From assembly GCA_022841625.1 (NCBI GenBank), contig JALHRD010000033.1, positions 1 through 56,089 on the forward strand: DNA of 56,089 nt, given 5' to 3'. Position 1 is the stretch's first letter. Each line of letters starts with the position of its first letter. Origin of the DNA: Xanthobacteraceae bacterium (GTDB lineage: Bacteria > Pseudomonadota > Alphaproteobacteria > Rhizobiales > Xanthobacteraceae). The notes beneath the pieces were generated by a model, which ran no database searches, was not told the origin of the DNA, and worked only from the letters and a program-made list of their open reading frames with translations. This document shows positions 24,492-39,962 of this stretch, one piece after another. Both the position numbers and the translations under genes were made by a program.

Positions 24492-24577
24492 ATGGCATCC
24501 GCCGACGCTATGAGGGAATCAAACGATTCGAAACGAATGCTCGATTTTCTCCCCATTGCAGCAGCTTTCAAAAGCCG

Positions 24578-25582
24578 ATGAATCATTCGTGCGCCGATGG
24601 CGACGCCCGGCGAGAACTGACGCTGAGCAGCGATCCGAACCGGCATTATCTCGTTCTGGTGGCGCATGACCCTTTGCCATCCGTGGCCGCCGATTTCAGC
24701 AACGTGGTGCCATTCACGCACCAGCGCGCGATCGAGGCAAATTTTCCATCGGCGACGGCCACGGCCGCAGATCGCCCGGCACTGTCTCCGCTGGATTATG
24801 ACCTATGCCGGCGCATCGCGCTGCTTGCCAGCTCATTCTTGCTGCACGGTCTATTGCTGGCGATGTTCCGGCAAGACGTGACGCCCGCAGCGAGCGTTGG
24901 TATCGAATCAATCAGGGTCGAGATTACGCTCGGTGCCACTACTGCCGCGGGCCGCGCGCTCCAGCCGGGCGAACAGGAGATGGAACCCGTAACAATGCCG
25001 GAAGAGCGCGCGCCAGACGAACTCACGACCTCGCAACCTCGCGTTGCGACCGTCATGTCGCAGGAGATTCCCGTGACGGCTCGGGATGCGGCACCAAGGG
25101 CGATACCCCAGCAGACACCGCTGGATTTTGAGACCGCGCCGGAGCAGCGCACGCCGGTCGCCGAACTGCCCGAACGGAAGGTGCAGCAAGCACCGGAACA
25201 TACGCGCATTGATGCGCTCACGGAGAAGATGGCTGCCCAAAAGAAGCACGTCGCTGCGGTGCCAAGCGATTCCGCCAGCGGCATCGGCCACGGCCGTTCG
25301 GACGTTTCCTCCAACTACAATGGCTTGGTCGCGGCCCATCTCCAACGCTACAAGCAATATCCTGCGGCCGTGCGCACGGCCAGATCTCAGGGAACCGCCA
25401 CGGTCTCCTTCACAATTGACGAGTTCGGCCGCGTCACGTCAGTGCGACTGGCGCAGGCGTCCGGCACTAGCGCTTTCGACCAGGAGGTTGTGGCAATGGT
25501 ACGCCGCGCTTCGCCGTTTCCCCAGCCGCCAGACCGCCACCGCCGCGAATTCACGGTGCCGGTGAGATTTAGTTTGCGCTGA
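24578..25582 (+). CDS. tonB: TonB-family energy transducer
   Basis: The 334-residue protein has one N-terminal membrane helix (RIALLASSFLLHGLLLAMFR at about 85-105), a periplasmic Pro/Glu-rich spacer and a C-terminal TonB domain at about 240-334 with YNGLVAAHLQRYKQYPAAVR, GTATVSFTIDEFGRVTSV and FDQEVVAMVRRASPFPQPP. TonB transmits proton-motive energy to outer-membrane receptors such as its neighbour. ExbB and ExbD are not in the window. The membrane helix being preceded by ~80 residues is unusual, and a later start is possible, though none is better supported. Confidence 0.9.
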   Translation: MNHSCADGDARRELTLSSDPNRHYLVLVAHDPLPSVAADFSNVVPFTHQRAIEANFPSATATAADRPALSPLDYDLCRRIALLASSFLLHGLLLAMFRQDVTPAASVGIESIRVEITLGATTAAGRALQPGEQEMEPVTMPEERAPDELTTSQPRVATVMSQEIPVTARDAAPRAIPQQTPLDFETAPEQRTPVAELPERKVQQAPEHTRIDALTEKMAAQKKHVAAVPSDSASGIGHGRSDVSSNYNGLVAAHLQRYKQYPAAVRTARSQGTATVSFTIDEFGRVTSVRLAQASGTSAFDQEVVAMVRRASPFPQPPDRHRREFTVPVRFSLR

Positions 25583-25676: not shown

Positions 25677-26729
25677 CTACAATCTTGTTTTTCCGACAAA
25701 CGCGGGTGTTGCGCCGAGCCAAGGAATCCTGTCAAGCGAAAGCTCAACCGTCAGCACGCGGTACGTTTCCTCGGCCGGAATGCTAGTGATCTCTTCAAGC
25801 GGATAGCTGCCGACGCAGCTTTCCGCTATCCATCGGCGCAGCGATGCACCAGGCAGCTCCTTGAGACGAGCCTCAACTTGAGCGGCAAGCGGCCTGCCGG
25901 GTTCGATCGAGGTTGCGACGGCGCCGAGCCAAGTGTCAGCGGCGGCATAAGCGCGGCGCGTCCCCGCATCGCGCGCAAAACTACGGATGCGGCGCACCCA
26001 AGCGCCTTTGTAGGCGACCGACGCCCGCACCGCGAAGCGGCCAGCAAGCGGCAACGTCCCCGCGATACGGATCAAGCGCCGGTCGGCATCGAGATCGGGG
26101 GCAATGGCGATGTAGGCTTCCTCGGCGCCGCCAAGCCGCGCCTGCTTTTCGACCAAACCAGCGACCGCGCCGGCATCGACCGAGTGCGCAGCGTCAACCT
26201 GATCGAGCGCGGTATTGGCAAGCGCGTCGGCGCGCGTAATCAATCCGCGCTCTGCCTCATCGATGGCGCATCGCGCGTCGGCGAACACAGCCCCCATGTC
26301 GATGAGCTCGACGCCTGGCGCCGCGTCGATGATTTCATCATACAGGCCCGCCGGCAGGCTGTCGTAATTCAACACGCCAACCCGCTTGCAGCCGGCCTGC
26401 GCAATCCGTTTGCCGACCGCGGCTCCGGGCTTCGGCGTGTTGACGATCTCGCTCAGCGAATCGGTGGTGCGGATCCAATTCGCGACGCGCTTCGACAGCG
26501 CGGTCGCAAACACCGGCGCACCCTGGCCCGGCAGCATCAGCATGCCATCCGACCAATAGGGCGTGAAACCGGTCAGCCATGTCACCGCGCTCGGCTGCAC
26601 CAGATTTGTGTAAAACAGCGCCGCATCGAGCCGATTGTGTTGCAGCGCCGCGCGCAACCGCGCGATACGCGCCTCAAGCGCCGCCTTCGGCAATTCTGCG
26701 GCATTCCATCCCATCAAACCGCGACGCAT
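25677..26729 (-). CDS. M24 'pita-bread' protein lacking metal ligands
   Basis: This 350-residue protein has a creatinase/prolidase-like N-terminal domain (LEARIARLRAALQHNRLDAALFYTNLVQPSAVTWLTGF) and a degenerate M24-type C-terminal half. The usual DxGxxxxGYxxDxxRT, HGxG and ED metal motifs are missing altogether, so it is not an ordinary metallopeptidase. It is the last gene of the minus-strand cluster and is preceded by another M24 gene after 10 nt. It may be a non-catalytic partner of that protein or a metal-independent hydrolase like creatinase. Substrate unknown. Confidence 0.7.
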   Translation of the reverse strand: MRRGLMGWNAAELPKAALEARIARLRAALQHNRLDAALFYTNLVQPSAVTWLTGFTPYWSDGMLMLPGQGAPVFATALSKRVANWIRTTDSLSEIVNTPKPGAAVGKRIAQAGCKRVGVLNYDSLPAGLYDEIIDAAPGVELIDMGAVFADARCAIDEAERGLITRADALANTALDQVDAAHSVDAGAVAGLVEKQARLGGAEEAYIAIAPDLDADRRLIRIAGTLPLAGRFAVRASVAYKGAWVRRIRSFARDAGTRRAYAAADTWLGAVATSIEPGRPLAAQVEARLKELPGASLRRWIAESCVGSYPLEEITSIPAEETYRVLTVELSLDRIPWLGATPAFVGKTRL

Positions 26730-26739
26730 GGCTCAGTCC

Positions 26740-27837
26740 TTACGCCGGTACGCTGAAAAGCTCGCGGGCGGTCTTGGTGAAGACCTCGCAGCCGGTCTTG
26801 GTGACGGCGACCACATCGCCGAGCACCAGATAGCCCACCACCGGATGATAGGTGTTGGGATGCACGATCAACGTCATCCCCGCGTCAATTCGCGTGGTGA
26901 CATCTTCGAGAATATGCGGCTTGCTGTCCGCAAACAGCCCGACGCCATGGCCGCGCACGCGGGTATATTGATCGGTGACGTAGATTCCGAGTCCTTCGCG
27001 ACGGAAAATGTCATTCTCGGCGCGCGCAATGTCGGCGGCGGTCACACCGTCACGAACCGCGGCGATGCCGGCTTCCATCGCCTCGCGGTAAAGCGCAAAC
27101 GCCTTGTTCTGTTCGGCATTGGGCTCGCCAACAACCAGCGTCCGGCAAATCTGAGCATAATAGCCCTCGACGCAGGGCGTAAGTTCGGTGGTCACGAGGT
27201 CGCCGGCCTTGAGCCGCTTGCCGCTCGGTGGCGCCATGCCGCGCACCTCAGGTCCGCCGACGCCGATGATCTGGAAATTGTCATCGACGCCCTTTGAGCG
27301 AAAAAACGCTTCAGCCTCCGCGATCAATTCGTAGTCGGCGCGGCCGGGCTTCGCCGCATCGCGGAACACCGCATAGCCCTCGTCCGCCACACCGCAGGCG
27401 CGGCGAATGGCATCGACCTCGGACGCCAGCTTGCCCATCAGCAGGCGATCGAGAAACGCGGTGCGATCGCCGAGATTGAGTTCTTTGGCGCGCGCCGCGA
27501 TCCGGCGCGGGATCAGCCGGCTCGGCGCGGTGCCGATACGGCGGTTGCTCAGACGATTGAGCGCCCGATCGACCTCACCCAGCAAATCCGGCGCATGCAC
27601 GATTTCAACGCCGGAGCACTCCAGCGCCGCGCGGTCGACCTCAAGCGCGCTATCGAGATAGAGCGTGACGCCATCCTCGCGCACAACCGCCAGCGCTTGG
27701 CCTTCCAAAATTCCGAAGTCGGTGGCATAGCGGAGATAGTCGTTTTGCCAAGCATTGCCGTATAGCAAAAGAACATCGAGGCCCTCGCCCGCCATTTCCT
27801 CAAGCAGCCGCGACCTGCGGTCGGTGAAAACCGTCAC
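26740..27837 (-). CDS. M24 family protein, creatinase-like with altered ligands
   Basis: The 365-residue protein has the M24 two-domain layout: N-terminal LLEEMAGEGLDVLLLYGNAW and a C-terminal pita-bread domain. GHGVGLFADSKPHI retains the central His297. Three of the other metal positions have changed: Glu218 and Gln229 replace the two Asp residues in TTELTPCVEGYYAQICRT, and His326 in TLIVHPNTYHP stands where Glu is expected. Loss of metal ligands with retained His is seen in creatinase, a metal-independent C-N hydrolase. GTG at 27837 is the start, 4 nt after the permease stop, with GGAAGGA upstream; the longer reading overlaps that permease. Confidence 0.75.
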   Translation of the reverse strand: MTVFTDRRSRLLEEMAGEGLDVLLLYGNAWQNDYLRYATDFGILEGQALAVVREDGVTLYLDSALEVDRAALECSGVEIVHAPDLLGEVDRALNRLSNRRIGTAPSRLIPRRIAARAKELNLGDRTAFLDRLLMGKLASEVDAIRRACGVADEGYAVFRDAAKPGRADYELIAEAEAFFRSKGVDDNFQIIGVGGPEVRGMAPPSGKRLKAGDLVTTELTPCVEGYYAQICRTLVVGEPNAEQNKAFALYREAMEAGIAAVRDGVTAADIARAENDIFRREGLGIYVTDQYTRVRGHGVGLFADSKPHILEDVTTRIDAGMTLIVHPNTYHPVVGYLVLGDVVAVTKTGCEVFTKTARELFSVPA

Positions 27838-27841
27838 AGTG

Positions 27842-28594
27842 TCATTCCTTCCAACGCGAAAAGCGGGCTTCGACCAAGCGCACCAGCTCATTGAGCGCCA
27901 CCGCCATCAGCGCCAGCGTCAAGATTAGCGCGATCAAAGCCGATGGATTGAAGGTTTCGGCATAGAGCAGCGTAAAGAAACCGATCCCGCCCTGTGAGAC
28001 AAACAGCTCCGCCAACAATACGCCCAGAAGCGTCATGGTCATCGCCAGCCGCAAGCCGGTGAATACCGCAGTCACCATGTGCGGGAACACGACATATCGT
28101 AACTGCTCAAATCGCGTCGCGCCCATGGCGGCGGCGCCGTGCATCAGCAGCGGATTGACATTGCGCATGCCGGCAATGGTGTTGACGATCACTGGGAAGA
28201 TGCCGTGACTGAAGCCGAAGGCGATCTTGCCGGCCGGCCCAAGCCCGAACATCAGGACGAACAAAGGCAGCAGAATTGCCTGCGGGATGCCATAGAGCAG
28301 CAGCACGATCGGGTAGAAACTGCGCCGCCCGACATCGCTGAGCCCAACCAGGACGCCAATCAGCATGCCAAACACCACCGACATCACGAATGCCACCACC
28401 AGCTCGATCAAGGTGACGCCAATGGCGTTGAGCACCCGCGGCTCACCCAGCACTTTCGGCCACAGTTCCGCCAAGACCTGGCTTGGCGCAGCCGACAGCG
28501 ACGAGGTCGCAAAGACGCGGGCATAGAACTCCCACACCAAGACGACGCCGAGAATTAGCAGCAGCCGGACCAGACGGATTTTGTGTGGTGACAT
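27842..28594 (-). CDS. ABC transporter permease (SsuC/TauC type)
   Basis: The 250-residue inner-membrane permease belongs to the nitrate/sulfonate/taurine uptake group. It has five to six transmembrane helices and the EAA loop MHGAAAMGATRFEQLRYVVFPHM (about 150-172), which contacts the ATPase. It begins MSPHKIRLVRLLLILGVVLV at 28594, 5 nt after the stop of the partner permease. Two permease genes back to back suggest a heterodimeric channel. The transported compound is unknown; the binding protein and dioxygenase downstream point to a small organic molecule. Confidence 0.92.
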   Translation of the reverse strand: MSPHKIRLVRLLLILGVVLVWEFYARVFATSSLSAAPSQVLAELWPKVLGEPRVLNAIGVTLIELVVAFVMSVVFGMLIGVLVGLSDVGRRSFYPIVLLLYGIPQAILLPLFVLMFGLGPAGKIAFGFSHGIFPVIVNTIAGMRNVNPLLMHGAAAMGATRFEQLRYVVFPHMVTAVFTGLRLAMTMTLLGVLLAELFVSQGGIGFFTLLYAETFNPSALIALILTLALMAVALNELVRLVEARFSRWKE

Positions 28595-28599
28595 GCCGC

Positions 28600-29364
28600 T
28601 CACTCCCGCTCGCTGCGGGTTTCGACCGCGAGCGCAAGCAGATTGAGCATCACCGACATGCACACCACAAATGAGATCCAGGCGTAAAGTTTCGCGGTCT
28701 CCATCAGCTCGGCGGCCAACGCAGTGGCGCGGCCTACCCCGGCGGTGGCCGCCAGGGTTTCGCCGCCCAGCACCGAGGCGATGCAAATGAAGAAACCGAT
28801 GCGCAGGCCGGTAAGCGTCACCGGCAATGCGGCCGGCATATAGACATAGCGGAACTGCTGCCAGCCCGAGGCGCCCATGGCGCGCGACGCCCGCAAATAG
28901 AGATCGTCGACATTCGAGAATGCCGCAATCGTATTGAGCGCGATCGGGAAAAACGCATAAGTCGCGCCATAGGCGACCTTGGAGTCGGGACCAATGCCGA
29001 AAAACAACACAAACAACGGGAAGAACATCGTCAGCGGCACCGCGAACATGCCGGACAATACCGGTTCAAACAGATGCACCAGCGTGCGCGAGCGCGCCAC
29101 TGCAAAGCCCACCGCGATCCCGACGATCGCCGCGATCGCATAGGCCTTGATGATGGAAACCACGGTGACATAAAGCGCCGACCACAGCTGGCCGGACCGC
29201 ACCAGCACGCCCATTTCGCGCCACACCAGTTCTGGCGCCGGCAGAAACAATTTCAAGGTGCCGCCGGAACGCGTGACGATGTACCAGGCCCCGAACATCG
29301 CCGCCAACATGCCGAACTGAATGGTGCGAATGACGAGCTTGTCCTGCGCGATCATCGCTGTCAC
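28600..29364 (-). CDS. ABC transporter permease (SsuC/TauC type), partner
   Basis: The 254-residue permease is the second channel subunit of the importer. It starts MTAMIAQDKLVIRTIQFGML and has about six helices; the EAA loop is LRASRAMGASGWQQFRYVYMPAAL. The start is GTG, overlapping the ATPase stop by 4 nt (29361-29364), a standard coupling overlap. It is similar in length to the other permease but not in sequence, so they are likely non-identical subunits of one transporter. Confidence 0.92.
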   Translation of the reverse strand: MTAMIAQDKLVIRTIQFGMLAAMFGAWYIVTRSGGTLKLFLPAPELVWREMGVLVRSGQLWSALYVTVVSIIKAYAIAAIVGIAVGFAVARSRTLVHLFEPVLSGMFAVPLTMFFPLFVLFFGIGPDSKVAYGATYAFFPIALNTIAAFSNVDDLYLRASRAMGASGWQQFRYVYMPAALPVTLTGLRIGFFICIASVLGGETLAATAGVGRATALAAELMETAKLYAWISFVVCMSVMLNLLALAVETRSERE

Positions 29365-30236
29365 GCTTGCGCGTCGCGCGCGAGCCGCATCGCGGCAACG
29401 GTCTGCCGGATTTCATCGCGCAGGAGTCCGTAGAGCTCCTTGCGAATGTTCTGGAACGCGTCGGTCAGCATGAAGTCGGGCGAGCGTGGGTGCGGCTCCG
29501 GCACCAGAATACTCGCCTTGATCTTCCCCGGCCGCGCCGTCATCACCACAATACGGTCGGCGAGGAACACCGCCTCGGCGAGCGAATGCGTCACAAAGAC
29601 GATGGTCTTGCCGCGGCGGGCGAGCAGGATCGAGAGATCCTCACCCAGCACCATGCGGGTCTGCTCGTCGAGCGCTGCGAACGGCTCGTCGAGCAGCAAG
29701 ACCTCTGAACCGACGCAGAGGCCGCGCGCAAGATTGATGCGCTGCTTCATGCCGACCGAGAGCTGCTTGGGATAATGGTTGGCGAACTGTTCCATGCCGA
29801 CCGCCGACAAGGATTGCATGGCACGGTCGCGCCAATTTGCTTCTTCGATGCCGCGAAATTTCAGCGCCAGCCGGAAATTTTCCAACACTGTGTACCAGGG
29901 AAACAATGTGCTCTCTTGAAACACATAGGCGATATCGTCGGGACGCGGGCTCGACACCGGTGTGCCGTTGACCGAGACGGTGCCGACGGTCTGCTGCAAC
30001 ATGCCGCCGATAATGCTCAACAGCGTGCTCTTGCCGCAGCCGGATGGCCCCAACAGACAGACAAACTCGCCCTTGCGGATATCGAGCGAAATATCGTCGA
30101 GCGCATGCACGCTCTGGCTCGGTTCGCGCCCGGCGAACGTCATCGAGACGTTACTGATGGTGATCGCTGGAGCCTGCACTCCGGTAGCCCTCGCCGATAC
30201 GGCGTTCGCGCCAACCACATTGCCCCCGGTCATCAC
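29361..30236 (-). CDS. ABC transporter ATP-binding protein (SsuB/TauB type)
   Basis: The 291-residue ATPase has Walker A GPSGCGKSTLL, a Q-loop in YVFQESTLFPW, the signature LSVGMKQRINLARGL (with VGM for the usual SGG), Walker B VLLLDEPFAALDEQTR and a switch His in FVTHSLAEAVFLADR. The signature is slightly unusual but lies in the right place. Start is GTG at 30236 followed directly by ATG. The gene starts 1-2 nt after the binding-protein stop and runs into the permease, all in one operon. Confidence 0.95.
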   Translation of the reverse strand: MMTGGNVVGANAVSARATGVQAPAITISNVSMTFAGREPSQSVHALDDISLDIRKGEFVCLLGPSGCGKSTLLSIIGGMLQQTVGTVSVNGTPVSSPRPDDIAYVFQESTLFPWYTVLENFRLALKFRGIEEANWRDRAMQSLSAVGMEQFANHYPKQLSVGMKQRINLARGLCVGSEVLLLDEPFAALDEQTRMVLGEDLSILLARRGKTIVFVTHSLAEAVFLADRIVVMTARPGKIKASILVPEPHPRSPDFMLTDAFQNIRKELYGLLRDEIRQTVAAMRLARDAQA

Positions 30237-30237
30237 G

Positions 30238-31203
30238 TCAGAACTTCACCGGTACAAAATTGTCATTATAGATCGTGCGCGCATCCGGCAGCGTATCGAG
30301 GATGCCGAGTTCCAGGAGCGACTTACGGATCACCTCGATCGAGACCGGACTCCATGCACCGTCGCTTGAAAAGCCGCCGACCTGCGCATCGTAAATGCGC
30401 GACACGATGCTTTCCCGCACGTCGATTGCCTTGGCGGTGATCTTCACCGTCTCGGCCTTGTTGGCGCGGATGAAGGCGATGGTCTTGAACCAGCCGCGCA
30501 AGAAGCGCCGCAACACGTCAGTGCGCTTTTCAACCATGGCGTCGGTCGCGAAGATCACATGGGTATAGAAGTTCTTTTCGATGTCACCAAAGTCGACCAG
30601 AATTCGACCGCGCTTCAGTTCCTCAAGCTCGTAGCCGCTCGCCGATTCGACCACCATGGCGTCGAGGTCGCCGCGCTCCATGGCGGCAAGCCGCGCCTGC
30701 ATCGAGCCAAGCGGCATCACCTGCATGCCGTCCCGGCCCCAACCCTGCTGACGCGCCATTTCGCGGCTCAGCCAGTCGGTGAGCGAACCGCCGGTGGTAA
30801 CGCCGACGCGCTTGCCTTTGAGATCGGCAACCGTCTTGATCGGCGACTTGGCGAGCACGACCATCGCCAAGTTCGACGGTGCGCCATACATTGCCGCAAC
30901 CCCGATCGCCGGCACGCCCTTGGCGCGAAAACCGAGCCCGGGCCCGGAGCCGAGGGCGACATCGACCGCGCCGGCAGTGAGGCCGGCCTGCATCTGGGCA
31001 TCGCCCTTGAAGCTCGAAATCGCGAGATCGATGCCTTCCTGCTTGAAAATGCCGACCTGCACCCCGACATCGGTGGCGGCAAAGGCCCAGGAGTTCGGCA
31101 CGGATTTGCCGATCCGGAGCTTGTCTTGCGCCAAGGCCGGCGCGCTCATGAGCAGCGCGGCGGCCAATGCCGCAATCGAGCGGCGTCTCACCAACCAAGA
31201 CAT
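30238..31203 (-). CDS. ABC transporter substrate-binding protein (NMT1/SsuA type)
   Basis: The 321-residue periplasmic binding protein starts MSWLVRRRSIAALAAALLMS with a signal peptide cleaved near ALAQ. The body resembles NMT1/SsuA/TauA proteins: KSVPNSWAFAATDVGVQVGIFKQEGI, LGSGPGLGFRAKGVPAIGVA and LKGKRVGVTTGGSLTDWLSR. These bind sulfonates, nitrate, pyrimidines, aromatic acids and related ligands, so the exact ligand stays open. It is followed by the ATPase and permeases and preceded by the TauD-like dioxygenase gene, which may act on the imported ligand. Confidence 0.9.
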   Translation of the reverse strand: MSWLVRRRSIAALAAALLMSAPALAQDKLRIGKSVPNSWAFAATDVGVQVGIFKQEGIDLAISSFKGDAQMQAGLTAGAVDVALGSGPGLGFRAKGVPAIGVAAMYGAPSNLAMVVLAKSPIKTVADLKGKRVGVTTGGSLTDWLSREMARQQGWGRDGMQVMPLGSMQARLAAMERGDLDAMVVESASGYELEELKRGRILVDFGDIEKNFYTHVIFATDAMVEKRTDVLRRFLRGWFKTIAFIRANKAETVKITAKAIDVRESIVSRIYDAQVGGFSSDGAWSPVSIEVIRKSLLELGILDTLPDARTIYNDNFVPVKF

Positions 31204-31230
31204 CGATGCTCCTCCAAAGACCTCTGCGGT

Positions 31231-32103
31231 CTATACCGGCTTTTCGCCAAGAATTGTGATCCGCCGCAACAGCCGGCGTTCACCTGCGCTGAAATCGGTG
31301 CGGGCGTGCAGTGTACAGCGATTATCCCACATCAGGATATCGCCGGGACGCCACAAGTGTTCATAGATGAATCGCGGCTGCTCTTGGTGGTTAAACAGGA
31401 ATGTCAGCAGTTCCTCGCTCTCGGCCGGATCGAGCTCTTCGATCCGGCGCGTCATCAGCCGGTTGACATAGAGCGCCTTGCGGCCGGTCGCAGGATGGGT
31501 TCGAACCACCGGATGGGCGTAGCAGGGCGCCCCGGGCGGAACCTCGGATTTCCGGATGGTCGCGGCGGTATCGTAGTCGTAGGCGTTAAGCGCCTTGCGA
31601 CCCGCGATCCGGCGCTTGATATCCGCCGGCAGCGTTTCGTAGGCCAGGTAGGCGTTCGCGAACAGCGTATTGCCGCCCACGCTTGGGACTTCGATGGCGT
31701 AAAGCATCGAAGCCTTGGCGGGAATTTTCTGGTGGCATTGGTCGGTATGGAACTGCATCTCACCGTCGGGCAGCGCGCCGATCGGCTTGCCGTCCTCGCG
31801 AATATTGGAGATCAGCATCACCGCTGGATGTGAGCGGACGAATTGCTGGGTGTGGATCTTGGCGGGTGGTCCGAAGCGCTCGGCAAAGCGCACCTGGTCG
31901 TCTTCGCTCAGCTTTTGGTCGCGCAACAGAATGACCAAATGCTGGTGCCAAGCATCCAGCATCACCTGGGCGAGCAGGTCGTCGATATCGTCACGCAGGT
32001 CGACGCCAATGATCTCGGCGCCGATGGCCGGCGATAGCGGACGCACGGTCAATGTCGGAGTCGGTGACCGCACTGGCGTCGCGGCGGAACCGGTCGTTTC
32101 CAT
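31231..32103 (-). CDS. TauD/TfdA-family Fe(II)/2-oxoglutarate dioxygenase
   Basis: The 290-residue enzyme contains the iron-binding facial triad His119-x-Asp121 (in EMQFHTDQCHQ) and His266 (in MWDNRCTLHARTDF), plus Arg residues in GERRLLRRI for 2-oxoglutarate. TauD-family enzymes hydroxylate carbon next to sulfonate, phenoxy or amine groups, leading to loss of sulfite, phenol or an aldehyde. In an operon with an SsuABC/TauABC-like importer the natural guess is an organosulfonate or related compound, but the neighbouring VOC and M24 proteins suggest otherwise. Position within the cluster is the main clue. Confidence 0.9.
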   Translation of the reverse strand: METTGSAATPVRSPTPTLTVRPLSPAIGAEIIGVDLRDDIDDLLAQVMLDAWHQHLVILLRDQKLSEDDQVRFAERFGPPAKIHTQQFVRSHPAVMLISNIREDGKPIGALPDGEMQFHTDQCHQKIPAKASMLYAIEVPSVGGNTLFANAYLAYETLPADIKRRIAGRKALNAYDYDTAATIRKSEVPPGAPCYAHPVVRTHPATGRKALYVNRLMTRRIEELDPAESEELLTFLFNHQEQPRFIYEHLWRPGDILMWDNRCTLHARTDFSAGERRLLRRITILGEKPV

Positions 32104-32160
32104 GGCGTCACTCCCTGACGTTTTTCAGGTCAGCCGATTATAGGGGCGATCCAAGCGAGA

Positions 32161-33189
32161 TCAAACCACCGGCGCCGGCGCTACCGATTGCAGCGTTGGC
32201 ATGACCTCGTGCGCAAACAGTTCGATCGACCGCTGTGTTTCGGCGAGCGGCAGATCGCCAAAGGCAAATTGCCCGACACAGTAATTACTGCCAGTCGCCG
32301 CAAGCTGCTCGCGCAGAAACGTTGCGACGGTGCGGGGCGAACCCGCAACCCCCTGGCCGACCGCCGCGATCCCGTCGAAATCTGGCGGCCGCGGATGCAT
32401 GGCCGAATAATTGTGGCGGCGGTGGAGGTATGTGAAGCTGTGGTGCCAGCGCGGATAAGCACGGCGCGCCAGCGCCAGCGCCGCGGCATCGGTCTCCGCC
32501 ACAACGATAAACCGGCCAAGCCCCATCAGCGGCAATGGCGCTTCACCCCAAGCCTCCCGCCAGGCGGCGCGGAACACCTCAAACGAGGCGCAGGTGGCGG
32601 GAACCGAGTCGAGGCTGATCACCCGCAGGCCCTTGCGCGCCGCGCGCTTGGCGCTTTCGGGCGCATGCAGACCGTACCAGACCGGAGGATACGGCTTTTG
32701 CAATGGCGCAAGCTCCATCGGCACATTGTCGAATTGAAAGAACCGGCCATGGAAGGTGAGCGTGGGCTCGGTCAGCCCCTTCAGCACGAGTTCGAGCGCC
32801 TCGGCATAGATTTCCTGCGCAAGCTTGGGATCCTGACCGTAATAATCCAATTCGATGCCGACCGAGCCGCGTCCGAATCCCATCTCGAACCGGCCGCCGC
32901 TCATTTGATCGAGCATGCAGATCTCTTCGATCATGCGGATCGGATGATAAAGCGGCAGCGCGTAGACCATCGGGCCGAAGCGCAGCCGCTGAGTTCGCTG
33001 CGCAACCGCCGCCAGAAACACGCTCGGGCTCGGCGCCAGCCCAATCGGTGTCGAATGATGTTCGGCGACATGATAGGCGTAAAAACCGAAGCGGTCGTAA
33101 TCCGCAATAGTCTTCAGCCGCGCCTCGTAATAATCGGCGAGCGACAGATCGTTACGGTCGAGATGGTCGAAAACGCCGAACTGCATCAT
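32161..33189 (-). CDS. LLM-class flavin-dependent oxidoreductase
   Basis: The 342-residue protein is of the bacterial-luciferase-like family. N-terminal FGVFDHLDRNDLSLADYYE, RFGPMVYALPLYHPIRMIEEICMLDQMSGGRFEMGFGRG and YYGQDPKLAQEIYAEALELV are family hallmarks. Members use reduced FMN or F420 and oxygen to cleave or hydroxylate alkanesulfonates, EDTA-like amines, pyrimidines and others. The ATG at 33189 overlaps the VOC stop by 4 nt, so translation is coupled. It probably acts in the same pathway as the dioxygenase downstream; electron-supplying reductase genes are not in the window. Confidence 0.9.
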   Translation of the reverse strand: MMQFGVFDHLDRNDLSLADYYEARLKTIADYDRFGFYAYHVAEHHSTPIGLAPSPSVFLAAVAQRTQRLRFGPMVYALPLYHPIRMIEEICMLDQMSGGRFEMGFGRGSVGIELDYYGQDPKLAQEIYAEALELVLKGLTEPTLTFHGRFFQFDNVPMELAPLQKPYPPVWYGLHAPESAKRAARKGLRVISLDSVPATCASFEVFRAAWREAWGEAPLPLMGLGRFIVVAETDAAALALARRAYPRWHHSFTYLHRRHNYSAMHPRPPDFDGIAAVGQGVAGSPRTVATFLREQLAATGSNYCVGQFAFGDLPLAETQRSIELFAHEVMPTLQSVAPAPVV

Positions 33190-34004
33190 TCGTCGGTCAC
33201 GTCAATCCACACGCCGCCGGGGTCGGCCATTTGAAATTTGCCGCCAGCTTCCTTGGCGAAGAATGCCTTGCGCGCCTCCGCCTCCTTGCTGCCGCCCAGC
33301 CGCATGGGCGCAACATACGGGTTCATCCCGGAAGTGGTCGCAACATGCTGCTTGAAGGCTTCGATATTTTCGACCTTGAAGCCGATGTGATCAGGACCTG
33401 GCCGCTTGATCGACATATTCTCAAAGATCGAGACCGACCACGGCAGGATCGAAAGGGTCACACGACCGTCGGTCAGGTGGTGACCGGAAGCGCTGCCAGC
33501 CCGATTCGCCGGCTTAAGCTCAAAGACATATTGATAAAAGTCCGCGCATTTCTCTGGGTTCATGGTGCGGATTGCGAACTTCGCGAGATAGCGGTCCTGG
33601 TTCCAGCCCGACGCCGCCTGCTCGGCATAAACGCCGACCAGTTTGTCGCCCTCGTCCTTTTGCGCCAGATCGAAAATATTGCCGTCAGGATCGTGGCCGC
33701 TGTAATTCGCAAATGGCCGCGTCGACGGCCGCTTGACGATATTGGCCTGCGGAAACTTTTCGCGCGCGCGCTTGAGCACGGTGTCGATATCGTCGACCAC
33801 CAGTCCGAAGTGGTCGAGCCCGCCAACATAGCCGTCGCGCAGTGGATTGATGTTGAGGCCAACATAACCGTCGCCGACCGTGACTGCATTGAGCGGGCGA
33901 CTGGTCTTGCCAGAGCGTTTGAGCCCGAAAAACGCCTCATAAAAATTCGCCAGCATCGGATAGATCGGGCTGACCATCGCCATGTGATTGATTTTCGCAA
34001 ACAT
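33186..34004 (-). CDS. Two-domain VOC-family protein (possible extradiol dioxygenase)
   Basis: The 272-residue protein has two vicinal-oxygen-chelate modules. Candidate metal ligands are His in GGLDHFGLVVDD at about 70 and in GPDHIGFKVENI in the second module. Strings such as YSGHDPDGNIFDLAQ and FYQYVFELKP are typical VOC elements. VOC enzymes cover extradiol ring cleavage, glyoxalases and isomerases, so specific function is open. ATG 34004 is preferred over TTG 34010 because GAGG lies 9-12 nt before it. It overlaps the oxidoreductase gene and follows the TctC gene by 2 nt. Confidence 0.8.
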   Translation of the reverse strand: MFAKINHMAMVSPIYPMLANFYEAFFGLKRSGKTSRPLNAVTVGDGYVGLNINPLRDGYVGGLDHFGLVVDDIDTVLKRAREKFPQANIVKRPSTRPFANYSGHDPDGNIFDLAQKDEGDKLVGVYAEQAASGWNQDRYLAKFAIRTMNPEKCADFYQYVFELKPANRAGSASGHHLTDGRVTLSILPWSVSIFENMSIKRPGPDHIGFKVENIEAFKQHVATTSGMNPYVAPMRLGGSKEAEARKAFFAKEAGGKFQMADPGGVWIDVTDE

Positions 34005-34006
34005 CC

Positions 34007-35035
34007 TCAAGACCTCGATAATTCGATCGAACGGGTCACTATATCCGGCGGGACATCGAGGGTCTGTTCTATCAGCTTTTGCAGATCGTCACCCGACATC
34101 GGGCCGAATTCGAGATTGCGCTTGTCCATCTCCGCCCTGAACGCCGGATCGGCCAGCATCGCCGCCACCGCGCGCCGCAGCACCGCCAGCCGGTCGGCCG
34201 GAATATCCGGCGGCGTCATCAGCGCGCGACCCACTTCGGCGGTACTGCCGAACAGATTGAGCACTTGTTTGTCGGAGGACGTCTTGCCGAACTCGACCAT
34301 CGCCGGCACCGCGGCAAATTGCGGATGGCGGCGCTGGGCATATTGCACCAGCACGTTCACGGTCTTGTCCCGCAACCAAGCCGGCCGGCCAAACAGCAGA
34401 TTTTCCAGCGTCGCATGCGCGCCTTCGGTTTCGCCGCGCTCCATTGCCAGCAGCGTGCCGGTGGTGCCGGGATAGCCTTTGACGATCTTGAACCGCGTGC
34501 CGGCGAGCTTGTTCATCAGGCTCGGCATCATCTCGGTGGTGGCGCCGGCACTGGTTGCTGCCATCACAGTATCGCGCGTCATGGCGTCGGCGATCGATTT
34601 GGTCGGCGACGTCTGCCAGGTCAGCGAGACTTCAATGATCGGCGTAAACCGCCCAAGCCAGCCGAACCGGCGCATGTCATAGGCCACCGCCGGATCGCGC
34701 AGCGCCTGGGTCAACGCCAATTGCTGGCCGATCATCCCGATGGTGAGCCCGTCCTTGGACGCCTGGCCGAACAGATAATTGGCCGCCTTGACGCTGCCGA
34801 CGCCGGGCATGTGCTTGACCGCGATGGTCGGATTGCCCGGGAGATATTTCGGCAGCAATTGCGCCGCAAGCCGCGAATAAACGTCGTAGCTGCCGCCGGG
34901 ATTGTATCCGACGATCAGCGACATCGGCTTGCCTTTGAAAAACTCCTCCGCGCTCTGGCCGCGCGCATGCGGTGTGAACACAATAGCGGCGAGCGCAATA
35001 ACGACGATTTTTCCGTACAGTGAGACGTGCGGCAT
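34007..35035 (-). CDS. TctC-family (BugT-like) substrate-binding protein
   Basis: The 342-residue periplasmic protein starts MPHVSLYGKIVVIALAAIVF with a signal peptide ending near ARGQ. The motifs AEEFFKGKPMSLIVGYNPGGSYDVYSRL, NPTIAVKHMPGVGSVKAANYL and VMAATSAGATTEMMPSLMNKL are characteristic of Bug/TctC proteins, which bind carboxylates or aromatic acids. The usual partners TctA and TctB are absent from the window, so the protein may work with a distant transporter or as a sensor. The start at 35035 is favoured over 35098, which overlaps the next gene. Confidence 0.88.
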   Translation of the reverse strand: MPHVSLYGKIVVIALAAIVFTPHARGQSAEEFFKGKPMSLIVGYNPGGSYDVYSRLAAQLLPKYLPGNPTIAVKHMPGVGSVKAANYLFGQASKDGLTIGMIGQQLALTQALRDPAVAYDMRRFGWLGRFTPIIEVSLTWQTSPTKSIADAMTRDTVMAATSAGATTEMMPSLMNKLAGTRFKIVKGYPGTTGTLLAMERGETEGAHATLENLLFGRPAWLRDKTVNVLVQYAQRRHPQFAAVPAMVEFGKTSSDKQVLNLFGSTAEVGRALMTPPDIPADRLAVLRRAVAAMLADPAFRAEMDKRNLEFGPMSGDDLQKLIEQTLDVPPDIVTRSIELSRS

Positions 35036-35045
35036 CGGACTTCTG

Positions 35046-36239
35046 CTACCTCCCGGATGCGACGCCGCCGCGATTCCAGCCGCGCGCGCCTTCGCCATAA
35101 ATTTCGAAGCCAGTGTCGGTCACCGCAATGGTGTCCTCAAGCTTAATGAAGCCGCGCTTGGGATGCATCAGCGTGGTTTCCACCGAGACCACCATGCCGG
35201 TTTCGAGCGGCCGTGTCGCGTCATAGGCATCGTAGGGCACCGGACCGGTGGCGGTCAGTCGCGGCGCCTCATGGCTCACCAGCCCCATGCCATGCGCCAG
35301 AAAGTGCATGTGATTGTGCAGCTTCGATTTGGCCAGCAGCGCCTCGGCGGCGGCATAGATTTCACCGCCCATCACGCCGGCCTTCGCCGGCTTCATCGAG
35401 GCGCGCTGGATCGCCTCAATCTCGGCCAGCATATCGACCAGCTCCGCATCGGGCTCGCCCAGGATCGCCATGCGCGCGAGATCGCCGATATAGCCATGAT
35501 AGTTTCCGCCGGAATCGAGCGAGAGCACATCGCCAGCCTCCCAGCGCTGCTCGGACGGCGCGCGGTTGTGGCTCGCGCCGGCGGCGATCAGGCAATATTC
35601 GAAGGTCAGGCCGCGGTTGGTTTCCTCGACCTTGAGCGCATCTGCCAGTTCCTGCTTGGTGGCGCCGGCCTGGTGGCTGGCGATCACCGCCTGCATCGAA
35701 TCGATCACCCGTTCGGAAGCGATCCGCACCATTTCCAATTCGGCCGGCGATTTGCGCGCCCGCAGCCGCTCCAGCACAAACAGCGCGTCGACGATCTCGA
35801 CTTCGGGCATGGCGCCGCGCAAGGCCGCCGCCGAATCCATCGGCAGGAACGCCATCTCGACCGCGATCCGCCGCGCCGGCCCGATCTTCTTGAGATGATC
35901 GACCGCCTTCTTGATCACATCGATCGAGCCCGACGCGGTGCAATTGCCTTCCGGCGTCCAGAACGATTTCACCTCGCGCTGGTGGTTTTCCAACCGATGG
36001 CCGAAAAACGCCGCCTTGTCGGGCGCGCCCTTCGGGTAGATCATGATCGGCAGGTAACGGCTCAGCCCCATCGCATCCATATAGTCAAAGAAAAACGCGC
36101 GATGGCCGCCGAGCAGGTACTGCACATTGTGTTTCGAGCTTGCGAGCAGCGCATCGATCCCGGCCTCCTCCATGAGGCGGTCGAGGCGCGCGGCGTCGAA
36201 CGGGATTGTCGATGCCGCCGGCTTGACAGTGGTGAGCAT
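35046..36239 (-). CDS. M24 metallopeptidase (Xaa-Pro peptidase/creatinase family)
   Basis: The 397-residue protein has a full set of M24 metal ligands: Asp242 and Asp253 in LDSGGNYHGYIGD, His316 in AHGMGL, Glu354 in VSVETTL and Glu368 in KLEDTI. This implies a dinuclear metal hydrolase acting on peptide or amide bonds. The N-terminal domain is RLMEEAGIDALLASSKHNVQ. The ATG at 36239 leaves normal length; the frame upstream runs into the divergent promoter region. It is the first gene of the minus-strand cluster, and contrasts with the two metal-ligand-free M24 proteins at its far end. Confidence 0.92.
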   Translation of the reverse strand: MLTTVKPAASTIPFDAARLDRLMEEAGIDALLASSKHNVQYLLGGHRAFFFDYMDAMGLSRYLPIMIYPKGAPDKAAFFGHRLENHQREVKSFWTPEGNCTASGSIDVIKKAVDHLKKIGPARRIAVEMAFLPMDSAAALRGAMPEVEIVDALFVLERLRARKSPAELEMVRIASERVIDSMQAVIASHQAGATKQELADALKVEETNRGLTFEYCLIAAGASHNRAPSEQRWEAGDVLSLDSGGNYHGYIGDLARMAILGEPDAELVDMLAEIEAIQRASMKPAKAGVMGGEIYAAAEALLAKSKLHNHMHFLAHGMGLVSHEAPRLTATGPVPYDAYDATRPLETGMVVSVETTLMHPKRGFIKLEDTIAVTDTGFEIYGEGARGWNRGGVASGR

Positions 36240-36427
36240 GACCAAGGCTCCTGCTGGTTGTCGCGGCGACGCGCGCCGCATTCTTTGACGATAGTGGGCT
36301 GGCAACAATGGTGGGCCGGGCGCGCGGCCAAAACAAGCCCCGCCGACGCCACCCCGGAATGCCGGCCTTACTTGACGCTTGCGCGCGCGGTTGGCAACGT
36401 CATCCGCGCATCCACGGAGCAACGAAC

Positions 36428-37486
36428 ATGCGCGCCGTTCGAACCGGCATGAACCCTGTCGCACTGGCCCTGCTCGGGCTGCTGGCGGCCGCGCCGACGC
36501 CGGCCGCAAGCCAGGCCGATTTCTACAAGGGCAAGACCCTCGAACTGATCATCTCAACCGGTGCCGGCGGCGGGCTTGACGCCAATGGCCGCATCGTCGC
36601 GCGCCACCTCGGCAATCATATCCCGGGAAATCCGACCGTGGTGGCCAAGAACATGCCCGGCGCCGGCCACATCCGCGCGGCCAATTATGTGTTCAGCCAA
36701 GCGCCCAAGGACGGCACCACCATCGGCACTTTCATCCCGATTTTCGTAATGGCGCAGGTGCTCGAACGCAGCAAGAGCATCCAGTTCAATCCGGCGCATT
36801 TTCAATGGCTGGTGTCGACGTCCTCCAGCAATTCGACGGTCTATACCTGGCACACCACCGGCGTGAAGACGCTGGAAGACGCGATGCAAAAGCAAGTGCT
36901 GATGGGCGGCACCGGCGTCGGCTCCTATAATGTGATCTACCCGACCGTCTTGAACAGCGTCGTCGGCACCCAGTTCCGGCTGGTGACCGGCTATGCCAGC
37001 ACCAGCGAGATTGCGATCGCGCTGGAGCGCGGCGAAGTGGAGGGCCGCGCCGGCAATAATTTCAACAGCCTGACTTCCGAACATGCCGACTGGCTCAAGG
37101 CCGGCAAGATCAACCTTCTGGCCCAGGTCGGCTTGGAGCGCGACGCTGAGTTTCCGCAGGTTCCGCTGATCACCGATTTCGCCAAGACCGACGACGCGCG
37201 CCAGATCTTGCGTTTTTTCTCGACCGACATCGTGATCGGCCGCCCGTTTGTCACCTCGCCGGGCGTGCCGGCCGAGCGGGTCGCCATGCTGCGCAAGGCT
37301 TTCGACAGCCTGCTCCAGGATCCCGCGTTCCGCGACGACTGCAAGAAGGCTGGTATCGATATCACGCCGGTCAGCGGCACGGCGATCCAGCAGATCGTGA
37401 CCGATTTCATCAACACGCCGGCCGATATCGTGGTGAAGGCGAAAGCCGCGATGGAACCCCGCAACACCACCGAACGCAAAAAATGA
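36428..37486 (+). CDS. TctC-family (BugT-like) substrate-binding protein, second copy
   Basis: The 352-residue periplasmic protein has a signal peptide (MNPVALALLGLLAAAPTPAA after MRAVRTG) and the Bug/TctC body: YKGKTLELIISTGAGGGLDANG, NPTVVAKNMPGAGHIRAANYV and MGGTGVGSYNVIYPTVLNSV. It is related to, but not a duplicate of, the copy at 34007-35035. ATG 36428 has GGAG about 8 nt upstream. It is transcribed away from the minus-strand cluster and starts 189 bp beyond the start of the M24 gene, so the two sets share a divergent promoter region. No TctAB genes are present. Confidence 0.88.
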   Translation: MRAVRTGMNPVALALLGLLAAAPTPAASQADFYKGKTLELIISTGAGGGLDANGRIVARHLGNHIPGNPTVVAKNMPGAGHIRAANYVFSQAPKDGTTIGTFIPIFVMAQVLERSKSIQFNPAHFQWLVSTSSSNSTVYTWHTTGVKTLEDAMQKQVLMGGTGVGSYNVIYPTVLNSVVGTQFRLVTGYASTSEIAIALERGEVEGRAGNNFNSLTSEHADWLKAGKINLLAQVGLERDAEFPQVPLITDFAKTDDARQILRFFSTDIVIGRPFVTSPGVPAERVAMLRKAFDSLLQDPAFRDDCKKAGIDITPVSGTAIQQIVTDFINTPADIVVKAKAAMEPRNTTERKK

Positions 37487-37591
37487 CCATCGGAAACCTG
37501 CGCGCTCGTTACTGTGTCCGTTCCCTTCGCGAGAGTGGGCACGCGATGCGAGAACCGTTTTTGTTCATGTAGCAAGTACAAGTTTGAGCCA

Positions 37592-38581
37592 ATGAAAAAA
37601 CTGCACCTGACGATTGCGACCCAGGATTACGACCATTTCCGCGATTTCCGCACCGGCGACATCCGCGCCGAGGGCATCGAGCACACCTGGCTGATGCCGG
37701 AACTGCACGAGATTTTCGCGCGCTTTACCGCCAACCGCGAATGGGACGTGAGCGAACTCTCGTTTGCGAAATTCGCCGCCCAGGTGACGCGCAAGAACCC
37801 CGACATTCTGGCGCTGCCGGTGGTCTGCTCGCGGCATTTCCGGTTCTCGGCGTTCTTCGTCAACAAGAACAGCAAGATCAAAAGCGCGAAGGACCTCAAG
37901 GGCAAGAAAATCGGCTCGCCGGAATGGGCGCACACCGCCGCGGTCTATATGCGCGGCTGGCTCGGCGACGAATGCGGCGTCAAACTCAAAGATGTCCACT
38001 GGTACCAAGCTGGCCTCAACCAGGCCGGCCGCGCCGAGAAGGTCGAGCTGTCGATCCCGAAAGGCGTAAAGCTGACCCGCGTCGAGGATAAGTCGCTGTC
38101 CGACATGCTGGCCAAGGGCGAGATCGACTGCGCCTTGGTGGCACGGCCGCCTGACTGTTTCCTGCGCGGCCATCCCGACGTGGTGCGGCTATTTCCGAAC
38201 TATCTCGAAATGGAAGAGCAGTATTACGCGCGCAGCAAGGTCTGGCCGATCATGCATGTGATTGCGATTAAGAAATCGATCCTCGACCGCGACCCCTGGG
38301 TTGCCGGCAGCCTTTACAATGCCTTTACGGAATCCAAAGAGCGCAGCATCGGCCGCCTCGCCGACGTGACCGTATCGCGCTACCCGCTGCCATGGTTGAC
38401 GACCTATGCCCGGCGGATGCGCGATCAGTTCGGCGGCGATCCGTTTCCTTACGGGATCGAGGAAAACCGACCGACGCTGGAGCAATTCATGCGCTACACC
38501 TTCGAACAGGGCATCGCGCATCGCCACGCCAAGGTCGACGACATTTTCCCGAAGGGCATGATGGTCGAGCATCTGACCTAA
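37592..38581 (+). CDS. 4,5-dihydroxyphthalate decarboxylase-like protein
   Basis: The 329-residue protein begins MKKLHLTIATQDYDHFRDFR and resembles 4,5-dihydroxyphthalate decarboxylase (Pht5/OphD-like) and its relatives, which share the fold of periplasmic binding proteins. It has no signal peptide. Core strings: GIEHTWLMPELHEIFARFT, KIGSPEWAHTAAVYMRGWL, DCALVARPPDCFLRGHPDVVRLFP and YPLPWLTTYARRM. The start at 37592 is used because the extension to 37514 lacks family similarity. It probably belongs functionally with the TctC gene 105 nt upstream. The family contains many members of unproved activity, so decarboxylation is tentative. Confidence 0.8.
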   Translation: MKKLHLTIATQDYDHFRDFRTGDIRAEGIEHTWLMPELHEIFARFTANREWDVSELSFAKFAAQVTRKNPDILALPVVCSRHFRFSAFFVNKNSKIKSAKDLKGKKIGSPEWAHTAAVYMRGWLGDECGVKLKDVHWYQAGLNQAGRAEKVELSIPKGVKLTRVEDKSLSDMLAKGEIDCALVARPPDCFLRGHPDVVRLFPNYLEMEEQYYARSKVWPIMHVIAIKKSILDRDPWVAGSLYNAFTESKERSIGRLADVTVSRYPLPWLTTYARRMRDQFGGDPFPYGIEENRPTLEQFMRYTFEQGIAHRHAKVDDIFPKGMMVEHLT

Positions 38582-39420: not shown

Positions 39421-39792
39421 TCAGGCCGCCAGCATTTTCTGCACTTCGTTGACCAAATCACGCAGATGGACCGGCTTCGACAGAACCTTGGCGTTCTTGG
39501 GCGCCGCTGAATCTGGGTTGAGCGCGACCGCCGCAAAGCCGGTGATGAACATGATCTTAATGTCGGGATCGAGCTCGGAGGCGCGGCGTGCGAGTTCGAT
39601 GCCGTCCATTTCAGGCATCACGATATCGGTGAGCAGGAGGTGGAACGGCTCCTCGCGAAGCCGCTCATAGGCCGCGAGCCCATTGTCGTAAGAAATCACC
39701 TCATAGCCGGCATTCTGCAGCGCCTTGACCAGAAAGCGGCGCATGTCGGTATCGTCTTCCGCCAGAAGAATCTTCGACATCTCTTTACTCAT
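39421..39792 (-). CDS. cpdR: Single-domain response regulator CpdR
   Basis: The 123-residue protein is a bare receiver domain. It starts MSKEMSKILLAEDDTDMRRF; LLTDIVMPEMDGIELARR contains the acceptor Asp (residue 56 here, 51 if translation starts at the second Met, 39777). In Caulobacter, CpdR is an adaptor controlled by the CckA-ChpT phosphorelay and directs ClpXP degradation of cell-cycle proteins. KVLSKPVHLRDL is the switch lysine region. The start choice is uncertain. Divergent neighbour hutG-like gene begins 170 nt away, a common arrangement in Rhizobiales. Confidence 0.92.
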   Translation of the reverse strand: MSKEMSKILLAEDDTDMRRFLVKALQNAGYEVISYDNGLAAYERLREEPFHLLLTDIVMPEMDGIELARRASELDPDIKIMFITGFAAVALNPDSAAPKNAKVLSKPVHLRDLVNEVQKMLAA

Positions 39793-39962
39793 TGCAGCCG
39801 GCGTCCCTTGATTGTCCCGAACCCATAAGCCGGATACGGGGTAAATATCGGGTGAACCCGACAATATATTGGCAGTGGCCCCACGGCCATGGACATTCGC
39901 TGGGTTCGCGGCATAGTGGTGCGGCTTGAACGGGCGCTCCGCCATCGAGGCAAACGTTATCC

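Follow-up and report, generated by a model that had tools for sequence, protein, structure and literature searches.

The described systems closest to the locus considered here are hydantoin and lactam hydrolases, creatinase-like enzymes, sulfonate importers and a phthalate decarboxylase. The locus is a cluster of 13 genes in the window, that is, in the whole 56,089-nucleotide (nt) stretch of DNA that was analysed (Xanthobacteraceae bacterium, contig JALHRD010000033.1). Eleven genes run on the minus strand (36239 to 25677) in the order M24a, TctC1, VOC, luciferase-like monooxygenase (LLM), TauD, substrate-binding protein (SBP), ABC ATPase, two ABC permeases, M24b and M24c. A divergent plus-strand pair, TctC2 and a gene of the 4,5-dihydroxyphthalate decarboxylase (DHPD) family, occupies 36308-38581.

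According to PMC8453981, known members of the HyuAB family, to which HyuABC (Pseudomonas sp. NS671) and caprolactamase CapAB belong, are ATP-dependent and open hydantoin and lactam rings, and HyuC acts after HyuAB in the hyuABC hydantoin pathway. The HyuA-HyuB proteins of loci related to the cluster belong to the same family, and a C-N hydrolase-like gene lies directly behind them. The cluster itself differs in having no HyuAB, and the related loci differ in having M24b-M24c, not HyuC, behind HyuAB.

Creatinase (creatine amidinohydrolase; 1chm, 1kp0) and the ectoine hydrolase DoeA/EutD (6twj) share their fold with M24b, as judged by sequence, and with M24c, as judged by predicted structure. 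They carry out hydrolytic C-N chemistry on non-peptide substrates, to which the proposed activity of M24b/M24c may be likened. Creatinase and EutD are not known to need the metals of prolidase. M24b is set apart from both by the residues E/Q/H/H/G at its metal-ligand positions, by scores far below the ectoine hydrolase cut-offs, and by a constant, degenerate partner gene.

SsuABC/TauABC, together with SsuD and TauD, resemble the cluster in the build of the importer and in including both an LLM and a TauD protein. The cluster's proteins nevertheless score under the curated cut-offs, its TauD is not conserved, and it has no flavin reductase. The solved 4,5-dihydroxyphthalate decarboxylase (9jp7) resembles the DHPD-family protein over its full length; the gene context in the window differs from that of known phthalate operons. 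Compared with the canonical extradiol pathway, the VOC protein lacks the first histidine of the triad in its C-terminal domain. No paper describing this gene set or a pairing of M24 proteins with HyuAB was found in searches of open-licence papers, nor one on the structure or mechanism of 4,5-dihydroxyphthalate decarboxylase.

The cluster is real, conserved in three species and mosaic, and the M24b-M24c module is its most informative part. We tentatively read it, with somewhat less than even confidence, as a composite locus that takes up and degrades either a cyclic amide or a carboxylated ring compound with nitrogen in it, the chemistry being suggested by gene context.

The M24b-M24c pair and its association with HyuAB

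M24b homologs were found in 27 of 391 genomes of the family (E≤1e-55), in one of 398 genomes of a phylum-wide set (at 1e-40; the window's own) and on three Neorhizobium galegae megaplasmids (64-66% identity). Apart from the window and its relatives L009 and L010, 24 family genomes have M24b; gene contexts were read in 20 of these (all but G623, G629, G468 and G533) and on two of the three plasmids. These 22 loci are not of the window type; with the window, L009 and L010 they make up the 25 loci counted here. M24c lies directly after M24b in all 25, at a match-end distance of 9-146 nt in 24 of them. The distance in L093 is 460 from the first part of a split M24b, and in L131 the contig ends after 42 residues of M24c. 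In L093 (L093:13291-16123, N. galegae pNgVX) HyuB and M24b are each annotated as two genes, while both are single open frames in HAMBI 540 (L094); the split may be a sequencing error or a real breakage.

Among the 22 loci that differ from the window type, 13 have a HyuB match whose end lies -37 to +55 nt from M24b. This adjacency, with HyuA-HyuB directly upstream of the pair, spans six genera, five of the family plus Neorhizobium, and the identity of HyuA and HyuB was confirmed by Pfam in L125. L133 is a bridge between the window-type importer and the HyuAB-linked pair: a LysR gene and an orthologous SBP-ATPase-permease-permease set (48, 64, 52 and 57% identical to those of the window) are followed there by HyuA-HyuB-M24b-M24c, with no LLM or TauD match in the locus. 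An SBP of 65% identity stands just ahead of HyuA-HyuB-M24b-M24c in L134, and one of 64% directly ahead of M24b in L135. The N. galegae locus reads LysR, HyuA, HyuB, M24b, M24c, MmgE/PrpD, SBP, ATPase, two permeases and an amidohydrolase. The SBP-ATPase-permease-permease-M24b-M24c part of the cluster (module B) is thus one local version of a more widespread module, whose fixed element is M24b-M24c and whose other members are an ABC importer, HyuA-HyuB or both. The three window-type sequences are placed among the HyuAB-linked ones in the M24b tree, the root of which is unsure. Four loci of one genus (L125, L129, L130 and L132) also carry two DHPD-family genes beside M24b-M24c with several genes between the two; in L125 these are a cupin and three molybdenum hydroxylase subunits (Pfam).

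The metal-ligand positions of the M24 family (D, D, H, E, E) were taken from the family motif, and the columns were read with M24a as reference in an alignment with prolidase 3q6d. M24a has D, D, H, E and E, the ligand set of an M24 metallopeptidase. M24b does not: these columns hold E, Q, H, H and G in all 24 homologs (L093 was excluded for its split reading frame) and also in a more distant paralog at G000:C5. The ratio of nonsynonymous to synonymous substitution rates (dN/dS) of M24b is 0.055-0.075. This low ratio and the uniform substitution point to a function that is maintained without the prolidase metal site. The catalytic residues of creatinase include an active-site histidine; in the alignment of the M24b proteins with M24a and the C5 paralog, a position that is H in the latter two is E or D in M24b. 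Profile scores of M24b are higher for prolidases than for creatinase, and it fails the NCBIfam cut-offs for ectoine hydrolase (32 versus 613 bits and 44 versus 575 bits).

The C5 paralog (32% identity) belongs to a second, divergent version of the module in the window's own genome (L045, G000:C5:168000-186619), which reads HyuA, HyuB, DHPD-family gene, M24b paralog, M24c-like gene, amidohydrolase_2 and TctC; the M24c-like label there reflects position and weak similarity.

Sequence similarity of M24c to the M24 fold is weak (best 3.4e-6, N-terminal part). Its AlphaFold2 model (pLDDT 87.6), by comparison, matches prolidase and creatinase along the chain, with TM-scores of 0.71 and 0.70 and a root-mean-square deviation (rmsd) of 5.3. 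Conserved stretches include GAEE and YKGxWVR, and dN/dS is 0.17-0.18. A pseudogene is disfavoured by this ratio and by the predicted fold. M24b by sequence and M24c by predicted fold are pita-bread proteins lacking the prolidase metal site. The earlier note had spoken of an M24 metalloenzyme and two more M24 proteins; the creatinase/prolidase fold holds for all three proteins, while the metalloenzyme description fits M24a alone, M24b lacking the ligands and M24c showing Creatinase_N only. Prolidases and creatinase are dimeric enzymes, so a heterodimer of M24b with M24c is probable. The pair is a recurring, enzyme-like one that resembles creatine-splitting enzymes and is apparently undescribed. 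An annotated plasmid record names its members 'aminopeptidase P family' and 'M24 family metallopeptidase', which is unlikely to be right because the ligands are missing.

Conservation and make-up of the block

L009 and L010, in genomes G443 and G404 of the window's own genus, were recovered in a scan of genome contigs with the VOC protein. Both contain the block from the DHPD-family gene to M24c with identical order and strands and 75-95% protein identity (90-94% for the DHPD-family protein, 86-87% for the LLM). Neither has a TauD match at 1e-5, and the SBP gene directly follows the LLM gene. Because dN/dS is 0.03-0.18 across all 12 genes common to the three loci, the cluster is not a chance assembly. 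The earlier note had described an uncharacterised cluster for uptake and catabolism, and this is supported. The genes all lie where the note had placed them and belong to the families it had named (by Pfam and NCBIfam profiles), and two further genomes of the genus have the complete block except for tauD. The comparison of gene order that the note had proposed found the order kept in these two congeners and the M24b-M24c pair more widely.

The whole block is narrow in distribution and was found in three genomes. VOC matches at E≤1e-30 occur in 12 of the 391 family genomes, and an identity of at least 76% is reached in four (the window's own, G443, G404 and G423). A broad spread of the block was not found: the VOC protein matches one of 397 genomes of the order at 1e-60, the window's own, and a search of plasmids with it gave no match. 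In G423, from another genus, VOC, DHPD and TctC2 genes accompany a thiamine pyrophosphate (TPP) enzyme on a 12.5 kb contig with no LLM, ABC or M24 match. In L041, from another genus, TctC2 and the DHPD-family protein are 62% and 61% identical to those of the window, and VOC and TPP enzyme genes are present. Module A is the divergent TctC2-DHPD pair together with M24a-TctC1-VOC-LLM; this arrangement of it was found in no locus other than the window and those of the two congeners.

The only gap of more than 27 nt within the minus-strand run follows the LLM gene. A promoter-like site there (TTGATC-16-TATAAT) matches the consensus at 10 of 12 positions; L009 and L010 have the same two hexamers at the same 16-nt spacing within a stretch that is otherwise different. 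Promoter-like sites in the region number 6, compared with 4.7 (standard deviation 2.2) in shuffles, which is not above chance, and the TTGATC hexamer overlaps the stop codon of the LLM gene; for these two reasons the site is suggestive at most. This arrangement suggests two transcripts, M24a-TctC1-VOC-LLM and [TauD]-ABC importer-M24b-M24c. A single conserved operon of 11 genes was rejected on account of this conserved site and of the absence of tauD from both relatives. The rest of the block is conserved in L009 and L010; tauD, which the earlier note had counted in, lies outside the conserved set.

The tauD gene stands just behind the promoter-like site and ahead of the SBP gene. Either module B gained it in the window's lineage or it was lost twice in the relatives; since the window groups with L010 and not with L009 on the M24b tree (support 83/84), a single gain is simpler than two losses. 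The best solved relative of TauD is (R)-phenoxypropionate dioxygenase (6d1o), and the alignment covers HTD and the distal H/R region. Taking an HxD...H iron triad and a C-terminal arginine as the family motif, TauD has the residues of an Fe/2-oxoglutarate dioxygenase. It fails the curated cut-off for taurine dioxygenase (194 versus 313 bits). Its nearest kin, in five congeners (74-76%), have other surroundings, as seen by gene-by-gene reading in three of them. The TauD family is much expanded, with 7 matches at 1e-60 in the window's genome and 2-9 in the other seven genomes of the genus.

LLM homologs (E≤1e-95) are present in 39 of 386 family genomes, and contexts were read in 20 of the 36 other genomes. 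HyuA lies directly behind an LLM gene (65% relatives) in three of the 20 (L179, L180 and L184), all from the window's genus; HyuB comes next in L180, and its start is visible in L179. An ABC ATPase match occurs in five contexts, and in one, L176, a TauD of 75% identity is divergent to the LLM. On other LLM subfamilies the LLM protein reaches 1.8e-29, a far better score than its 1e-7 to 2e-7 on alkanesulfonate monooxygenase, and it fails the SsuD cut-off (30 versus 518 bits). LLM, TauD, HyuAB, amidohydrolases, TctC/Bug and DHPD-family proteins appear in shifting combinations across the family. Four contigs of one other genus (G446:C32, G407:C4, G470:C1 and G568:C383) carry a second LLM (50-52%) 15-36 kb from M24b. 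A locus elsewhere in the window's genome (L046, G000:C4:90001-110000) holds an LLM (56%), TauD (49%), ABC genes, a UbiD-like decarboxylase, a DHPD-family gene (34%), an FAD_binding_2 protein, an enoyl-CoA hydratase-like protein and TctC.

The best of five models of the VOC protein (pLDDT 81.8; the lowest 51.0) has a two-domain VOC fold like that of 4-hydroxyphenylpyruvate dioxygenase (HPPD), hydroxymandelate synthase and catechol dioxygenases (TM-scores 0.50-0.63 and rmsd 6-12 among the 50 matches listed). Type I extradiol and HPPD-like dioxygenases bind their metal through H, H and E of the C-terminal domain. In the VOC protein this triad is incomplete: Lys144 replaces the first histidine in the window, L009, L010 and L041, a position that is His in 8 of 12 aligned sequences. 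H9, H67 and D114 of the N-terminal domain are invariant in all 12. The protein may use its N-terminal domain or may be no dioxygenase; the earlier description of a ring-cleavage-type VOC holds for the type of fold. The DHPD-family protein is barely recognised by Pfam, and its match to 9jp7 (1.3e-60) extends over 320 residues, with homology along the full chain. Importer scores are under the Ssu/Tau cut-offs for the SBP (124 versus 163.5 bits), the permeases and the ATPase.

Possible functions of the cluster

The favoured reading, uptake and breakdown of a cyclic amide or of a carboxylated ring compound with nitrogen in it, would work as follows. The TctC and SBP proteins would bind the substrate and the ABC complex would import it. 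The LLM and the VOC protein, with TauD as an extra oxygenase in the window's strain, would oxygenate the ring or break it open. In related loci the corresponding step would be an ATP-driven hydrolysis by HyuAB. M24b/M24c, as a metal-free creatinase-like heterodimer, would then split a C-N bond of the opened product, in the place that HyuC has in classical HyuABC. M24a might perform a further C-N hydrolysis and the DHPD-family protein a decarboxylation. The substrate class rests on the association with HyuAB, because members of that family hydrolyse hydantoins and lactams (PMC8453981). The earlier note had suggested an aromatic, sulfonated or N-containing acid; the last is the best supported of the three, both halves of the cluster having relatives beside HyuA or HyuA-HyuB.

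Several observations weigh against this reading. The main weakness is that the linked HyuAB type is absent from the window's genome and the two relatives. No HyuA or HyuB match lies in the window's cluster or in those of L009 and L010. When the HyuA of L125 was searched against 14 genomes, identities of at least 65% (65-86%) were found in four (G470, G425, G413 and G410, in the last about 14 kb from M24b); the other ten peak at no more than 52%, including 51% in the window's genome and 50% in each relative. Seven further genomes, some of them incomplete, thus appear to keep M24b-M24c without the linked HyuAB type. HyuA genes are also numerous, with 7 in the window's own genome and several in most of the 14 searched. 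HyuAB is not beside M24b in 9 of the 22 loci, one of them cut by a contig end; in L143 about 60 nt upstream of M24b are visible. The M24b tree is not firmly rooted. On the side of module A, the genes come from large families (TctC, LLM, VOC), M24b matches are missing from all 20 LLM contexts that were read, the three loci with LLM next to HyuA belong to one genus and perhaps reflect one event, and no flavin reductase is encoded among the 13 genes.

That last absence also tells against a sulfonate- or sulfur-scavenging cluster, in which an SsuABC-like importer, an SsuD-like LLM and TauD would serve sulfite release. The permeases, ATPase and SBP do match Ssu/Tau models, among others, and a TauD family member is present, yet the ABC and SBP scores stay under the cut-offs, the LLM belongs far more closely to other subfamilies, and TauD, whose nearest solved chain is (R)-phenoxypropionate dioxygenase, is missing from the other two copies of the cluster. 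L133, moreover, has the same importer type with HyuAB-M24b-M24c and no LLM or TauD match, and we consider sulfonate use quite improbable. A nitrogen-free aromatic diacid of the phthalate type, degraded by oxygenation, DHPD-family decarboxylation and VOC ring cleavage, would account for the 320-residue match to 9jp7, the HPPD/extradiol-type fold of the VOC model and the recurrence of DHPD, TctC2 and VOC with the TPP enzyme in L041. It is unlikely all the same: the VOC orthologs have Lys for the first histidine of the triad, neither a Rieske oxygenase nor a dihydrodiol dehydrogenase is found among the 13 genes, and three creatinase/prolidase-fold proteins and the HyuAB links are left unexplained.

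The locus could also represent no single pathway, being an opportunistic neighbourhood of two unrelated operons made of promiscuous families. In the other genomes read, relatives of module A are found away from those of module B, a promoter-like site separates the modules, and the presence of tauD varies. Against this, three species keep the modules side by side with an unchanged gene order, with the same kinds of flanking genes and with all 12 shared genes under purifying selection, and both modules have relatives beside HyuA. We regard this alternative as doubtful, though less so than the other two.

The reading as a locus for a nitrogen-containing ring compound has a narrower form, in which M24b-M24c would be a new metal-free heteromeric creatinase-fold hydrolase that cleaves a C-N bond in the HyuAB product, and in the window's lineage a flavin monooxygenase/VOC route, feeding this pair, would have taken the place of the ATP-dependent opener. 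This form is speculative and rather unlikely as a whole. A strict replacement of HyuAB by the LLM is weakened by the LLM relatives that adjoin HyuA in three congeners and by the several genomes that keep M24b-M24c without that HyuAB. The pair is a testable unit: a two-gene module in two bacterial families, behind HyuAB in six genera, with a uniform non-metal signature. If it were a C-N hydrolase, a function and a class of substrate could be assigned to misnamed genes, and the pita-bread fold would have another metal-free catalytic solution beside creatinase.

Features and flanking genes

Table 1. Features of the cluster, with positions in the window.
Feature	Position	Strand	Family or remark
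M24c	25677..26729	-	degenerate pita-bread protein; Pfam: Creatinase_N only
M24b	26740..27891	-	pita-bread family; Pfam M24 + Creatinase_N
ABC permease 2	27842..28594	-	PF00528; SaoP/TauC-like below cut-off; start MSPHKIRL
ABC permease 1	28600..29364	-	PF00528; TauC/SaoP-like below cut-off
ABC ATPase	29361..30236	-	PF00005
Importer SBP, SsuA/NMT1 family	30238..31203	-	NMT1; SsuA_fam 124 bits vs cut-off 163.5
TauD-family Fe/2-oxoglutarate dioxygenase	31231..32103	-	PF02668
Promoter-like site TTGATC-16-TATAAT	32137..32164	-	between LLM and TauD/SBP
LLM flavin monooxygenase-like protein	32161..33189	-	PF00296
Two-domain VOC protein	33186..34010	-	Pfam Glyoxalase
TctC1, TctC/Bug-type binding protein	34007..35098	-	PF03401
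M24a	35046..36239	-	Pfam M24 + Creatinase_N; metal ligands complete (D/D/H/E/E)
TctC2, divergent TctC/Bug-type binding protein	36308..37486	+	PF03401
DHPD-family protein	37514..38581	+	9jp7_A match 1.3e-60

By open reading frame (ORF) calls, TctC1/VOC, VOC/LLM and ATPase/permease 1 overlap by 4 nt, and gaps measure 57 nt before tauD, 27 nt before the SBP gene and 1, 5 or 10 nt elsewhere. Overlaps of about 50 nt arise at M24a/TctC1 and permease 2/M24b when the longest ORFs are taken, so the true starts there are probably slightly downstream. M24a most likely starts at 36239 and TctC2 probably at about 36446. The most likely predicted start of the DHPD-family protein is about 37592, because homology begins at residue 26; judged by eye, the protein has no apparent signal peptide. 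The base composition of the cluster is not distinct from that of the rest of the window.

TonB-dependent receptor-like and TonB-like genes (named by eye) at 22203-25582 are convergent with the downstream end of the cluster. At the same place in the relatives there is a receptor match in L010 and a TonB match in L009. On the other side, beyond a tRNA-Val gene, response-regulator-like and N-formylglutamate amidohydrolase-family genes lie at 39421-40850, and such genes are near the cluster in L009 and L040 too.

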